The translations under genes were made by a program, and so were the position numbers. The notes under the pieces were generated by a model. The model searched no databases and was not told where the DNA came from. It saw only the letters and a program-made list of their open reading frames with translations. This document shows positions 5,059-17,526 of a stretch of DNA of 64,000 nucleotides, piece after piece (the stretch's first letter is position 1; every line of letters starts with the position of its first letter). This DNA comes from Rhizobium brockwellii (lineage in GTDB: Bacteria > Pseudomonadota > Alphaproteobacteria > Rhizobiales > Rhizobiaceae). Location of the stretch: assembly GCF_000769405.2 (NCBI RefSeq), contig NZ_CP053442.1, forward strand, positions 197,951 to 261,950, read 5' to 3'.

Positions 5059-5823
5059 TCAGAAGGACAGATCGAGCACCCTGCCCTCGAACAGACGGTC
5101 CCGGGAGCCTTCGAGATGCGCCTTCATCAGTCTTTGTGCATCGTCAGGCCGTCCATCGGCGATCGCCTTGTAGATGGCGTTATGCTCTTCATAGACCTGT
5201 TCCAACCCCTGGCGGGGGCCGAGCAAAGAGAGGCCGTGGAGATGCATGCCGACGGCGATATGGGCCTTCAGCGCATCGATGGAGGCCGTATAATAATGAT
5301 TGTTGGCAGCCTCCGTCACCGCGCGGTGGAAGAGAAAATCGGCGTCGGTGCGGTGAAGCTGATGGCTGGTCGCCTCGCGCAGATCCGCAAGCGCGCTGGC
5401 GATCTTCTGGATCGCCTGCTCATTGCGGCGTTTGGCGGCGAAATAGGCGGCGGCCGGCTCGATCGTCAGGCGGAATTCGTAGCAGCGCTGAATGTCGGCG
5501 ATCGTCTTGACCGGCGAATAGGCAAGCTGCGTCGTCGGCGATCCATGCGCGCTGACGAAGGTGCCGGCGCCCTGCCGGGCATAGACCATGCCCTGATCGC
5601 GCAGGCGCGCCAGCGCATCGCGGACGATCGGCCGCGACACACCCAGCATCGAGGCAAGCTCATGCTCGCCGGGAAGGCGTGAATCCGGCGGATAGTTTCC
5701 GCCGCGGATACGCTCGAGCAATTGGTCGAAGACGCGATCGACCAGCTTGACGGCCTTGCCGCGTTCGGGCTTGCCCGGTGGGCCGGCTTCCGCGTTCAAA
5801 GATTCGCCATTCACTTCAGCCAC
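5059..5823 (-). CDS. GntR/FadR-family regulator (FCD domain)
   Basis: The 254-residue repressor-type protein has an N-terminal winged HTH (about residues 27-95; LPGEHELASMLGVSRPIVRD, then ALARLRDQGMVYARQGAGTFV) and a C-terminal all-alpha FCD ligand domain (ADIQRCYEFRLTIEPAAAYF onward). The start is a GTG at 5823, 7 bases after GGGGAG. It is the last gene of the minus-strand operon, 24 bases after the acid-sugar kinase gene, so it probably controls this transporter-kinase operon and the divergent genes in response to a sugar acid or its catabolite. The effector is unknown. Confidence 0.9.
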   Translation of the reverse strand: MAEVNGESLNAEAGPPGKPERGKAVKLVDRVFDQLLERIRGGNYPPDSRLPGEHELASMLGVSRPIVRDALARLRDQGMVYARQGAGTFVSAHGSPTTQLAYSPVKTIADIQRCYEFRLTIEPAAAYFAAKRRNEQAIQKIASALADLREATSHQLHRTDADFLFHRAVTEAANNHYYTASIDALKAHIAVGMHLHGLSLLGPRQGLEQVYEEHNAIYKAIADGRPDDAQRLMKAHLEGSRDRLFEGRVLDLSF

Positions 5824-5847
5824 GTCATTCTCCCCGGCGGTATCTTA

Positions 5848-6912
5848 CTATGCCGCCCGATTCCAAAGAACCAGTCTTAACAAACTATCGGGCTTGCCGA
5901 AGCCCCCTGACTTCACGGCGCACCGAAAATGCCGCCCGTCGCCTGCCGTGACATCGAACCACGGCACGCCGGCCTCGATTTCGCCCTGCGGCGCCAGCAC
6001 TCTGACCCCGAGCGCCTGGAAAACGGCAAGCGCCGTATCGCCGCCGCCGACCATCAGCATGTCAGGCCTGGTATCGTCGATTACCGATCTGACGCCTGCC
6101 GCAAAATGGCGGGCGACCAGTGCCGCATCGGCTGTCATATCGCCGCTGCAACGCAGCAGCGCCGGCAGCGCCATGCCCTCCCCGACTTCGACCTGCCCCA
6201 TCGGCGCGTCCACCACCATGCGCAGGACACCCGAGGCTTCGAGCTGGTCCATCTGGGTAGCGGTAATCGGGTCGCGCGAGCCAAAGGCGAACAGGGTACG
6301 CCGGGTCGCGGCAAATTCCGGCGCCGATTGCCGCCCCGTCTCGCCGAGTTGACGGGCAAGTGCGGAACCCAGACCCCGTGCGCCGACCGCAAGCGTCAGC
6401 CGCCAGTCCTGATCGGCAACGATCTGGTCGAGATCACTATCGTCCTTTGCATCGGCAACAGCAATATTGCCCGTGCGGCCCTCGAATAAATCGGCGATCG
6501 GCAGTGGCTTGTCGACACCGCGCCCGACAACACAGCCTCTGTAGGTCACGCGCTCCTGATCGGGAATAGCGGGCGCCACGAGGATAGTCTCCAGGCCGAG
6601 CGCTTCGGCCAGCGCCAGGCTTTCTGCCGCGACATTGCCCTTCAGGCGGGAGTCGATCTTCTTCATCACGACTGCGGGCTTCACGCCATGAAGTGCCGCG
6701 GTCGCAAAGCGGACCCTCTCGGCAGCTTCCGGTTCGCCAAGCGCACGCGAAGCGGTGTTGACGACGACGACGTCACAGCCGGTGGCGATCGCATCCTCTG
6801 TGGCCTCCACGTTGACTGCGACCGCAACCGAAAGGCCGGCCTCGACGAATGGCGTGCCGGTATCGAGCGCGCCGGTCAGATCATCGGCAATGATGGCGGC
6901 CTTCAGAGTCAT
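5848..6912 (-). CDS. four-carbon acid-sugar kinase (DUF1537; DtnK/OtnK family)
   Basis: The 354-residue protein belongs to the DUF1537 kinases, which phosphorylate C4 sugar acids such as D-threonate or erythronate with ATP. The N-terminal substrate domain shows AIIADDLTGALDTGTPF, VVVNTASRAL and KKIDSRLKGNVAAE. The C-terminal nucleotide domain shows LMVGGGDTALAVFQALG and AVKSGGFG. The ATG at 6912 overlaps the preceding stop by 4 bases (ATGA), so the genes are translationally coupled. The family normally works with PdxA2, and a PdxA homologue lies at 16540-17526 in the same locus. The exact stereoisomer used is unknown. Confidence 0.9.
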   Translation of the reverse strand: MTLKAAIIADDLTGALDTGTPFVEAGLSVAVAVNVEATEDAIATGCDVVVVNTASRALGEPEAAERVRFATAALHGVKPAVVMKKIDSRLKGNVAAESLALAEALGLETILVAPAIPDQERVTYRGCVVGRGVDKPLPIADLFEGRTGNIAVADAKDDSDLDQIVADQDWRLTLAVGARGLGSALARQLGETGRQSAPEFAATRRTLFAFGSRDPITATQMDQLEASGVLRMVVDAPMGQVEVGEGMALPALLRCSGDMTADAALVARHFAAGVRSVIDDTRPDMLMVGGGDTALAVFQALGVRVLAPQGEIEAGVPWFDVTAGDGRHFRCAVKSGGFGKPDSLLRLVLWNRAA

Positions 6913-16509: not shown

Positions 16510-16539
16510 GCCACAAAGTTTTCAGAAGGAATTCGATCG

Positions 16540-17526
16540 ATGGACAGGAATGCGAAAGTCGCGGTAACGCTCGGCGATCCGGCCGGCGTCGGCCCCGAGG
16601 TGATCGTCAAGGCGCTCGCAGCCCTTCCGAGGGAGGAGCGCCGCGATTTCGTCATCGTCGGCAATGTCGAAGCGCTGGAGCGCGCCGACCGCGTCACCGG
16701 CACCGGACTGCGGTTCGGGCCTGCCGATGCACCCGGTGACGACAGGATCGCGGTCGACGAAGTCGCGCTCGGCGCGGCTCTACCCGAAATCGGCAGGGTC
16801 AGCCCCGTCGCCGGCGATGCCTCGGTGCGCTATATCACCCGCGCCGTCGATCTCGCCATGTCGGGTCAAGCCGACGTCATCGTCACCGCGCCGATCAACA
16901 AGGAAGCGATGAACCTCGCCGGCCATCACCATGACGGTCACACCGGGCTGCTCGCGCATCTCACCGGGTCGAAGAGCTCCTTCATGCTGCTTGCCTCCGA
17001 GCGGCTGAACACCATCCACGTCTCCACCCACATCTCGCTGAAGGGTGCGATCGAGCGCGCCAAGACCGAGCGGGTGCTGGCGACCATCGAAGCCGGCCAT
17101 AGGCACTTCCTGCGGCTCGGCAAGACGGCGCGCATCGCCGTCGCCGGCCTCAATCCCCATTGCGGCGAAAACGGCCTGTTCGGCACCGAGGACACGGAAT
17201 TCCTGGCGCCCGCCGTCGAGCAGGCGCGGGCAAAGGGCATCGACGTCGTCGGCCCGATCTCGGCCGATACGGTGTTTGCCCGCGCCTATAATGGCGCTTT
17301 CGATCTCGTCATCGCCCAGTATCACGACCAGGGCCATATCCCGATCAAGCTCGTCGCCTTCGACACGGCGGTCAACGTCTCGCTCGGCCTGCCGATCGAC
17401 CGCGTCTCGGTCGATCACGGCACCGCCTTCGACATCGCCGGCACCGGCAAGGCAAACCACGTCAACATGCTGTCGGCCATCGCCTATGCCAGGCTGATGG
17501 CCCGCTCGCCGCGGCAGAGAGCGTGA
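16540..17526 (+). CDS. pdxA2: PdxA-family dehydrogenase (PdxA2-like, acid-sugar phosphate dehydrogenase)
   Basis: The 328-residue protein is an NAD-dependent oxidative decarboxylase of the 4-hydroxythreonine-4-phosphate dehydrogenase family. Motifs are GDPAGVGPEV, metal-site HHHDGHTG, LNPHCGENGLFG and YHDQGHIPIKL. PdxA2 paralogues oxidise 4-phospho-D-threonate or 4-phosphoerythronate to dihydroxyacetone phosphate plus CO2. They are encoded with DUF1537 kinases, as here. It lies 30 bases after the alcohol dehydrogenase gene. I favour the catabolic PdxA2 role over pyridoxal phosphate synthesis because of this context. Confidence 0.88.
   Translation: MDRNAKVAVTLGDPAGVGPEVIVKALAALPREERRDFVIVGNVEALERADRVTGTGLRFGPADAPGDDRIAVDEVALGAALPEIGRVSPVAGDASVRYITRAVDLAMSGQADVIVTAPINKEAMNLAGHHHDGHTGLLAHLTGSKSSFMLLASERLNTIHVSTHISLKGAIERAKTERVLATIEAGHRHFLRLGKTARIAVAGLNPHCGENGLFGTEDTEFLAPAVEQARAKGIDVVGPISADTVFARAYNGAFDLVIAQYHDQGHIPIKLVAFDTAVNVSLGLPIDRVSVDHGTAFDIAGTGKANHVNMLSAIAYARLMARSPRQRA

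Follow-up and report, generated by a model that had tools for sequence, protein, structure and literature searches.

D-threonate catabolism is a two-step route in which a kinase acts first and PdxA2 second, and it offers the nearest point of comparison for the eleven-gene cluster described herein, which lies on 64,000 nucleotides of Rhizobium brockwellii DNA (contig NZ_CP053442.1, positions 197,951 to 261,950; hereafter the window, which forms the end of this contig, 261,950 bp long). The cluster ends in the same two enzyme families as that route, a DUF1537 kinase (DtnK-like) and PdxA2, and differs from it by adding an upstream pyruvate lyase, a sialidase-fold protein of the BNR type and an aldehyde-reductase-type enzyme. 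According to passages of PMC12540250, the L-threonate and D-erythronate pathways (OtnI, OtnK and OtnC) also carry a C4 acid to dihydroxyacetone phosphate (DHAP) with a DUF1537 kinase, but no such isomerase or decarboxylase is found among our eleven genes, where PdxA2 would both oxidise and decarboxylate. Sialic acid (nan) catabolism is alike in having an importer, a NanA-superfamily lyase that gives pyruvate and then a sugar kinase, whereas our cluster has neither an epimerase nor an amino-sugar enzyme among its genes and instead has a tetronate-type kinase, PdxA2 and an apparently cytosolic sialidase-fold protein. The cluster recurs across genomes and almost certainly constitutes one pathway.

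A sequence-only reading of this DNA had described eleven genes in two divergent arms, and all eleven were confirmed at window positions 5059–17526, with 328 bp separating the arms. Start codons of three genes were adopted from the annotation of pRL9b6, a near-identical plasmid of Rhizobium leguminosarum (261,915 bp; BNR identity 98.7%). The features are as follows.

5059..5823, minus strand: GntR/FadR-type (FCD) transcriptional regulator (Pfam GntR and FCD)
5848..6912, minus strand: short DUF1537 (four-carbon acid sugar) kinase, DtnK-like (Pfam SBD_N and NBD_C)
6909..7901, minus strand: DppF/OppF-type importer ATPase (Pfam ABC_tran and oligo_HPY; start as in pRL9b6)
7901..8908, minus strand: DppD/OppD-type importer ATPase (Pfam ABC_tran and oligo_HPY)
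8905..9861, minus strand: DppC-type permease (Pfam BPD_transp_1 and OppC_N)
9864..10820, minus strand: DppB-type permease (Pfam BPD_transp_1; start as in pRL9b6)
10950..12584, minus strand: DppA, family-5 solute-binding protein (Pfam SBP_bac_5, 204 bits)
12585..12912, no strand: divergent promoter region common to both arms (328 bp; conserved blocks in an alignment of orthologous regions)
12670..12684, no strand: weak copy of the candidate operator, TTGTAAATATGTCAA (conserved block in a 63-region alignment; two mismatches to the palindrome)
12779..12793, no strand: candidate regulator operator TTGTC-N5-GACAA, a perfect palindrome (the sole exact copy in the window)
12913..13818, plus strand: DapA/NanA-superfamily pyruvate lyase (aldolase; Pfam DHDPS)
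13830..15017, plus strand: sialidase-fold BNR protein (BNR_2), with His211 at the position of the GH33 catalytic Glu
15376..16509, plus strand: iron-type alcohol dehydrogenase (Fe-ADH) / aldehyde reductase (Pfam Fe-ADH and ADH_Fe_C; start as in pRL9b6)
16540..17526, plus strand: PdxA2, 4-phospho-D-threonate 3-dehydrogenase-like (passes the general PdxA cut-off)

In the 7.12-Mb host genome BNR_2 has a single match and PdxA two, against four for DUF1537, six for Fe-ADH and 14 for the DHDPS family, those of the cluster counted. Given these numbers, their meeting at one locus is not chance; an arithmetic estimate that assumes independent placement gives ~4e-8 for all four partner families lying no more than 20 kb from the only BNR gene. 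BNR homologues (E <= 1e-10) were found in 54 of 397 sampled genomes of Rhizobium's order, with 49 strong matches besides that of the window (E <= 5.2e-79), of which 40 were fetched and nine were not, while seven weak matches were omitted. Neighbourhoods were scored by a loose tblastn search (1e-10), in which the counts for the Dpp ATPases, the short-chain dehydrogenase/reductase (SDR) and GntR include unrelated paralogues; two of the query slices, one for DapA and the one for DppA2, were incomplete or in the wrong frame, and the DppA2 counts were not used. Four fetched loci (L154, L156, L158 and L163) were left out of this scoring, and an L062 alignment row in the wrong frame was disregarded. 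Within 12 kb of BNR, the order-level loci contained DUF1537 in 33/40 cases, a DapA-family gene in 32/40, PdxA in 24/40 and Fe-ADH in 22/40, with all four together in 18 and at least three in 25. Among the best 80 of 579 relatives in GTDB, a set biased to Rhizobium, 69 loci had all four. An even sample of the phylum gave a BNR gene (E <= 1e-40) in 11 of 398 genomes, and all five loci outside Rhizobium's order carried DUF1537, PdxA, Fe-ADH and DapA-family genes (on fetched stretches of 13–20 kb). The six within the order included four complete loci, counting the window; the other two were L051, with three of the four families at a contig end, and L049, with none. Seven of nine scored named records were also complete, namely Agrobacterium, S. 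meliloti pSymA, Enterococcus raffinosus, Klebsiella, Subdoligranulum, Cupriavidus and R. daejeonense, while Pantoea ananatis had no nearby kinase and Roseomonas neither kinase nor PdxA nearby.

Between the window and Enterococcus, the kinase, lyase, Fe-ADH and BNR proteins are 25–34% identical and PdxA2 42%, and because the set has been kept at only 25–34% identity, each family seems to be needed. In Cupriavidus, the kinase and PdxA2 regions share one reading frame of 775 aa (L160, 7422–9749), an apparent gene fusion. The sequence-only reading had claimed a pathway complete in itself, with a GntR regulator of its own, that ends in the DUF1537/PdxA2 pair and includes the lyase, the BNR protein and the Fe-dehydrogenase; the recurrence of the gene set, including these three with the kinase and PdxA, bears this out and supports joint inheritance, and the arms, whose failure to co-occur in other genomes had been named beforehand as a refutation, do co-occur. 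Certain loci weigh against so tight a linkage. At least one of the four families is missing near BNR in 22/40 order-level loci, and none is present at L038, L043 (a 4.6-kb contig), L047 and L049. The best 80 GTDB loci include 11 without at least one family, of which L144, L145 and L150 are without any, and a distant haloarchaeal BNR relative (L163) lacks the set. Ten further loci (L061–L070) have no PdxA nearby and Fe-ADH in one only. Several loci (e.g., L043, L051 and L059) end at contig ends. In the L061–L070 variant, the importer and BNR are accompanied by a DUF1537 kinase (~430 aa in the loci read), a PrpR-like regulator and a gene of either the DapA or the FAA-hydrolase family; this variant probably serves a related but different substrate. 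The Klebsiella record (CP125156, L157) shows both Fe-ADH (6468–7615) and BNR (10004–11169) broken across frames, through either sequencing error or decay.

What was computed is the gene set and how far it is conserved, together with the enzyme families and the fold of BNR; from these we infer a scheme, in its substrate and step order as in its dehydrogenase direction, BNR function and location, and regulation. 3-Deoxy-D-lyxo-heptulosaric acid (DHA), an acidic sugar of the pectin rhamnogalacturonan II (RG-II), or a small DHA conjugate, would enter via the Dpp-type importer, and the apparently cytosolic BNR protein would free DHA or open it to a lyase-ready form. The DapA-family enzyme would then split the C7 2-keto-3-deoxy-aldarate into pyruvate and 2,3-dihydroxy-4-oxobutanoate (a C4 uronate), which Fe-ADH, or an SDR in some relatives, would reduce to D-threonate. 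Finally, the DUF1537 kinase would give 4-phospho-D-threonate and PdxA2 would oxidise and decarboxylate this to DHAP, with both arms under GntR control from their common intergenic region. We consider the order of lyase, reduction, D-threonate and DHAP rather probable, whereas the scheme as a whole, from Dpp import and BNR to the D-threonate kinase and PdxA2 acting on DHA, falls a little short of an even chance of being right.

The order of steps is carried by the lyase and the dehydrogenase. Since the Schiff-base Lys171, Tyr141 and the G47-T48-x-G50-E51 motif are conserved (14 of 14 aligned sequences), the split into pyruvate and a C4 aldehyde, which the sequence-only reading had already proposed, fits a DapA-family enzyme. 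With a pyruvate lyase placed ahead of a C4 acid, the substrate would be C7; should it be a diacid, cleavage leaves an aldehyde-acid of four carbons, from which one reduction of the Fe-ADH/SDR type gives a tetronate. The Fe-ADH scores exceed the Pfam cut-offs (117.2 vs 31.3 bits, and 165.2 vs 27 for the C-terminal domain); in the comparison with solved structures, methanol, 1,3-propanediol and alcohol dehydrogenases come first, with lactaldehyde reductase further down the list. Enzymes of this family interconvert alcohols and aldehydes, and to our knowledge they do not make acids from aldehydes. An aldehyde dehydrogenase (ALDH) was found within 12 kb of BNR in only 1/40, 1/80 and 0/9 loci of the three sets (one query, 1e-10). 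Given the Fe-ADH chemistry and the lack of a conserved ALDH, reduction of the C4 uronate to D-threonate fits better than the oxidation of the C4 aldehyde that had initially been proposed. The dehydrogenase itself can be swapped, with SDR in the absence of Fe-ADH at L037, L042 and L045 and both together at L174–L176, in Klebsiella and in Cupriavidus.

At the C4 end of the scheme, kinase motifs such as ADDLTG, SRLKG and KSGGFG vary little or not at all across 15 aligned sequences. The Klebsiella kinase passes the curated cut-off for D-threonate kinase (507.8 vs 450), and the cut-off of 583 for D-threonate 4-phosphate dehydrogenase is exceeded by PdxA2 of both Klebsiella (665.8) and Pantoea (663.6). 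Among solved structures, those nearest the window PdxA2 include 2hi1 (PdxA2) at rank 1 and 6e85 (D-threonate 4-phosphate dehydrogenase) at rank 3. The two PdxA genes of the host are separated, one on contig C1, which would be the biosynthetic copy, and one in the cluster alongside the DUF1537 gene; PdxA2 serves organic-acid catabolism, as passages of PMC9997740 describe. Other observations argue against reading the window pair as D-threonate enzymes. The kinase of the window has diverged and is shorter than the models (354 aa vs model lengths of 418–422, with Pfam matches confined to its two ends), and although D-threonate kinase is the better of two NCBIfam models, its 139 bits lie under the cut-off of 450. 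PdxA2 passes the general (pyridoxine) PdxA cut-off (341.6 vs 290.35) while the D-threonate 4-phosphate dehydrogenase model ranks third at 306 bits, under its cut-off, so that neither window enzyme passes the curated D-threonate cut-offs. The same holds for the Enterococcus pair (kinase 220, PdxA2 354.3), and the same passages of PMC9997740 have PdxA2 also capable of the PdxA reaction.

Stereochemistry points to DHA within this scheme. By Fischer-projection reasoning, a D-lyxo C7 ulosaric acid yields D-threonate after retro-aldol cleavage and reduction of the aldehyde, and the same reasoning correctly yields D-arabinose (C5) from 3-deoxy-D-manno-octulosonate (Kdo); DHA has exactly the D-lyxo C7 ulosaric configuration. 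In plants DHA, like Kdo, has been reported only from RG-II and is related in structure to sialic acid (in passages of PMC12168206), and it sits in RG-II side chain D, which ends in arabinofuranose (in passages of PMC12282258). No pectin- or RG-II-degrading gene was noticed beside a single-domain BNR gene, most neighbours not having been scanned, which counts against DHA, and we name it as the substrate with somewhat more doubt than belief. No description of this pathway was found in the open-licence literature searched; the two papers there that name both heptulosaric acid and an aldolase give DHA, where the acid is mentioned, as one of the sugars of pectin. It is conceivable, though we lean against it, that this is the first intracellular route for DHA breakdown, in plant-associated and gut bacteria, with a sialidase-fold branch that bears an invariant His for Glu and acts in the cytosol on a 2-keto-3-deoxy diacid, and with freely exchanged importers.

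The predicted structure of the BNR protein (predicted local distance difference test, pLDDT, 91.6) has the propeller fold of GH33 sialidases, which is that of enzymes acting on 2-keto-3-deoxy sugar acids, and many records label the protein as exo-alpha-sialidase. It shares with GH33 sialidases this fold, Asp-box repeats and apparently Arg227 and Tyr362, and differs from them at an invariant position: a profile search aligned His211, 16 residues before Arg227, to a sialidase Glu that we take to be the catalytic residue of GH33. His211, Arg227, Arg319 and Tyr362 are invariant in 33/33 aligned members (an alignment of 33 of 41 BNR sequences). By position, Arg227, Arg319 and Tyr362 are assigned as putative arginine-triad and nucleophile residues, and the first Arg of the triad, going by the GH33 motif, would be replaced by the likewise invariant His41. 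Judged by these residues, the protein is of sialidase fold but is not a canonical sialidase, so that the sialidase-like protein described earlier stands as to its fold and not as to its catalytic Glu. No signal peptide was seen by eye, and the protein is apparently cytosolic. That it acts on an ulosaric unit, as a hydrolase or as a ring-opening enzyme, seems to us evenly poised between right and wrong. Besides His211, two observations tell against such a role: import of free DHA would leave nothing to hydrolyse, even though BNR is the gene always present (in loci chosen by BNR), and a relative fused to a GH78 module has Gln instead of His at the catalytic position.

This relative is a Bacteroides finegoldii domain that follows the GH78 module and that a single comparison put at 26% identity (E 6e-24); its gene adjoins a GH140 gene, with a DUF3826 gene nearby. 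GH140 is presumably also the family of BT1012. Passages of PMC7939467 describe BT1012 as an RG-II apiosidase and place a DUF3826 module in the RG-II esterase BT1017 as well. The Bacteroides neighbourhood links the BNR family to RG-II and does not prove the substrate; in such Bacteroides loci (BT1012, BT1017 and others), polysaccharide is broken down, whereas the window cluster would perform intracellular small-molecule catabolism.

The importer has all parts of the Dpp/Opp family, with two typical ATPases, two permeases and a family-5 binding protein (Pfam). The binding protein scored under the curated cut-offs of all ten matching NCBIfam models, which does not exclude peptides. Other loci have other carriers: a second, distant Dpp-type importer at L050 and L052–L060 (binding protein 22–26% identical in the eight of ten loci with a match), and elsewhere near BNR a sodium:solute symporter, a tricarboxylate-type binding protein, an NMT1-type ABC system, a citrate-transporter-family permease (Enterococcus and Subdoligranulum) and, at L041, a tripartite ATP-independent periplasmic (TRAP) system next to a symporter. 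Because the carriers elsewhere are of Na+ symporter, citrate and tricarboxylate types, which would fit a small poly-acid, what enters the cell is probably a small acidic compound, which makes doubtful the earlier claim that a larger conjugate enters through the peptide-class importer. Ordinary peptide uptake was rejected as an explanation, the importer being the exchanged part of the cluster. In Pantoea, Klebsiella and Enterococcus, as in three further genomes, the set is joined by genes of the YhcH family, which includes a sialic-acid anomerase; this speaks for the DHA scheme. The Subdoligranulum cluster (L159) contains an esterase-family gene at 5478–7361 (Pfam) and a similar-looking one at 3751–5595 (by eye), a hint of an esterified substrate there. 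In Pantoea ananatis (L153, 10719–17077) the module adjoins the ascorbate (ula) operon; ascorbate breakdown also gives C4 acids, and this adjacency is perhaps more than coincidence.

The same carriers suit another explanation, in which the substrate is some other small poly-acid of plant or soil, a di- or tricarboxylate that the DapA-family enzyme cleaves or dehydrates, with the C4 end still passing through DUF1537/PdxA2 and with BNR acting as something other than a glycosidase, such as a lactonase or an anomerase. In its favour are the carriers found near BNR homologues (citrate-type, tricarboxylate-type, TRAP and Na+ symporter), the missing GH33 Glu, the esterase-family gene in Subdoligranulum and the DapA family itself, which includes dehydratases besides aldolases. 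It names no compound, however, and the GH33 fold and the Klebsiella enzymes that pass as D-threonate equivalogs suit a D-lyxo C7 ulosaric acid; we regard this explanation as quite possible, though doubtful.

An oxidative version would begin with a neutral 2-keto-3-deoxy acid of seven carbons, either as such or in a conjugate, which is split into pyruvate and a tetrose that is oxidised to the C4 acid before phosphorylation and decarboxylation. By our own reasoning, 3-deoxy-D-lyxo-heptulosonate would likewise yield D-threonate; sugar lactols can be oxidised by SDRs, and two of 129 loci, which count against the reductive order, do have an ALDH-family gene, one 4.2 kb from BNR together with an SDR and no Fe-ADH (L045) and the other 3.3 kb from BNR (L139). 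Against this version stand that rarity of ALDH genes, the inability of Fe-ADHs to make acids and the carriers, which favour a poly-acid, and we know of no common natural neutral C7 acid of D-lyxo configuration. It is improbable on balance.

Much less probable still is a mislabelled Kdo or sialic-acid (nan-like) catabolic system, for which the GH33 fold, the NanA-superfamily lyase and the YhcH genes of some members speak. The YhcH of some relatives is presumably of the NanQ family, the carrier classes seen near BNR are also used for sialic acid, and the Bacteroides GH78–BNR fusion could conceivably act on the rhamnose–Kdo side chain of RG-II. But cleavage of Kdo would yield D-arabinose, and that of sialic acid a C6 amino sugar, and neither product calls for a tetronate kinase with PdxA2; the lyase remains under the curated cut-offs for N-acetylneuraminate lyase (105 vs 281 and 89 vs 382 bits), and the eleven genes include no amino-sugar enzyme. 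Simple use of D-threonate or a related C4 acid beside an unrelated peptide importer, stray lyase and BNR gene is just as hard to credit, for although DUF1537 kinases and PdxA2 act in sugar-acid catabolism without these genes (in passages of PMC10971088 and PMC9997740) and the Klebsiella kinase/PdxA2 pair is divergent from the remaining genes, the lyase, BNR and Fe-ADH stay with that pair across families and phyla.

Both arms of the cluster may be controlled together. A regulator match (paralogues included) lay within 12 kb of BNR in 25/40 order-level loci, and the palindrome TTGTC-N5-GACAA occurred in 35 of the 65 divergent regions compared, those of the window and of 64 orthologous loci, and was absent from 30. 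Copies with two mismatches were at chance level in the window (18 observed vs 17.7 expected), and the classic FadR-type operator T-N-G-T-N3-A-C-N-A was not found in the window's divergent region or in the 64 orthologous loci. The regulators at relatives include GntR, DeoR and a PrpR-type activator. Shared regulation, the lack of which had been named beforehand as a refutation, is suggested by the conserved palindrome, which agrees with joint control of both arms by the linked GntR protein but does not prove it.

The five-enzyme pathway, distributed from Rhizobium to Clostridia, has been annotated piecemeal (as exo-alpha-sialidase, dihydrodipicolinate synthase family and PdxA), so that these genomes would be mis-modelled, and it flags so-called sialidases that have no sialidase catalytic glutamate. 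If DHA is the substrate, the pathway would be a route for a sugar set free by RG-II degradation, and a cross-feeding role in the rhizosphere or gut becomes testable. Around the cluster, an FGGY-family carbohydrate kinase lies upstream at window positions 1944–3581, and the annotation of pRL9b6 places two toxin-antitoxin pairs after it, Phd/VapC at ~17696–18357 and RES/Xre at ~18543–19453.

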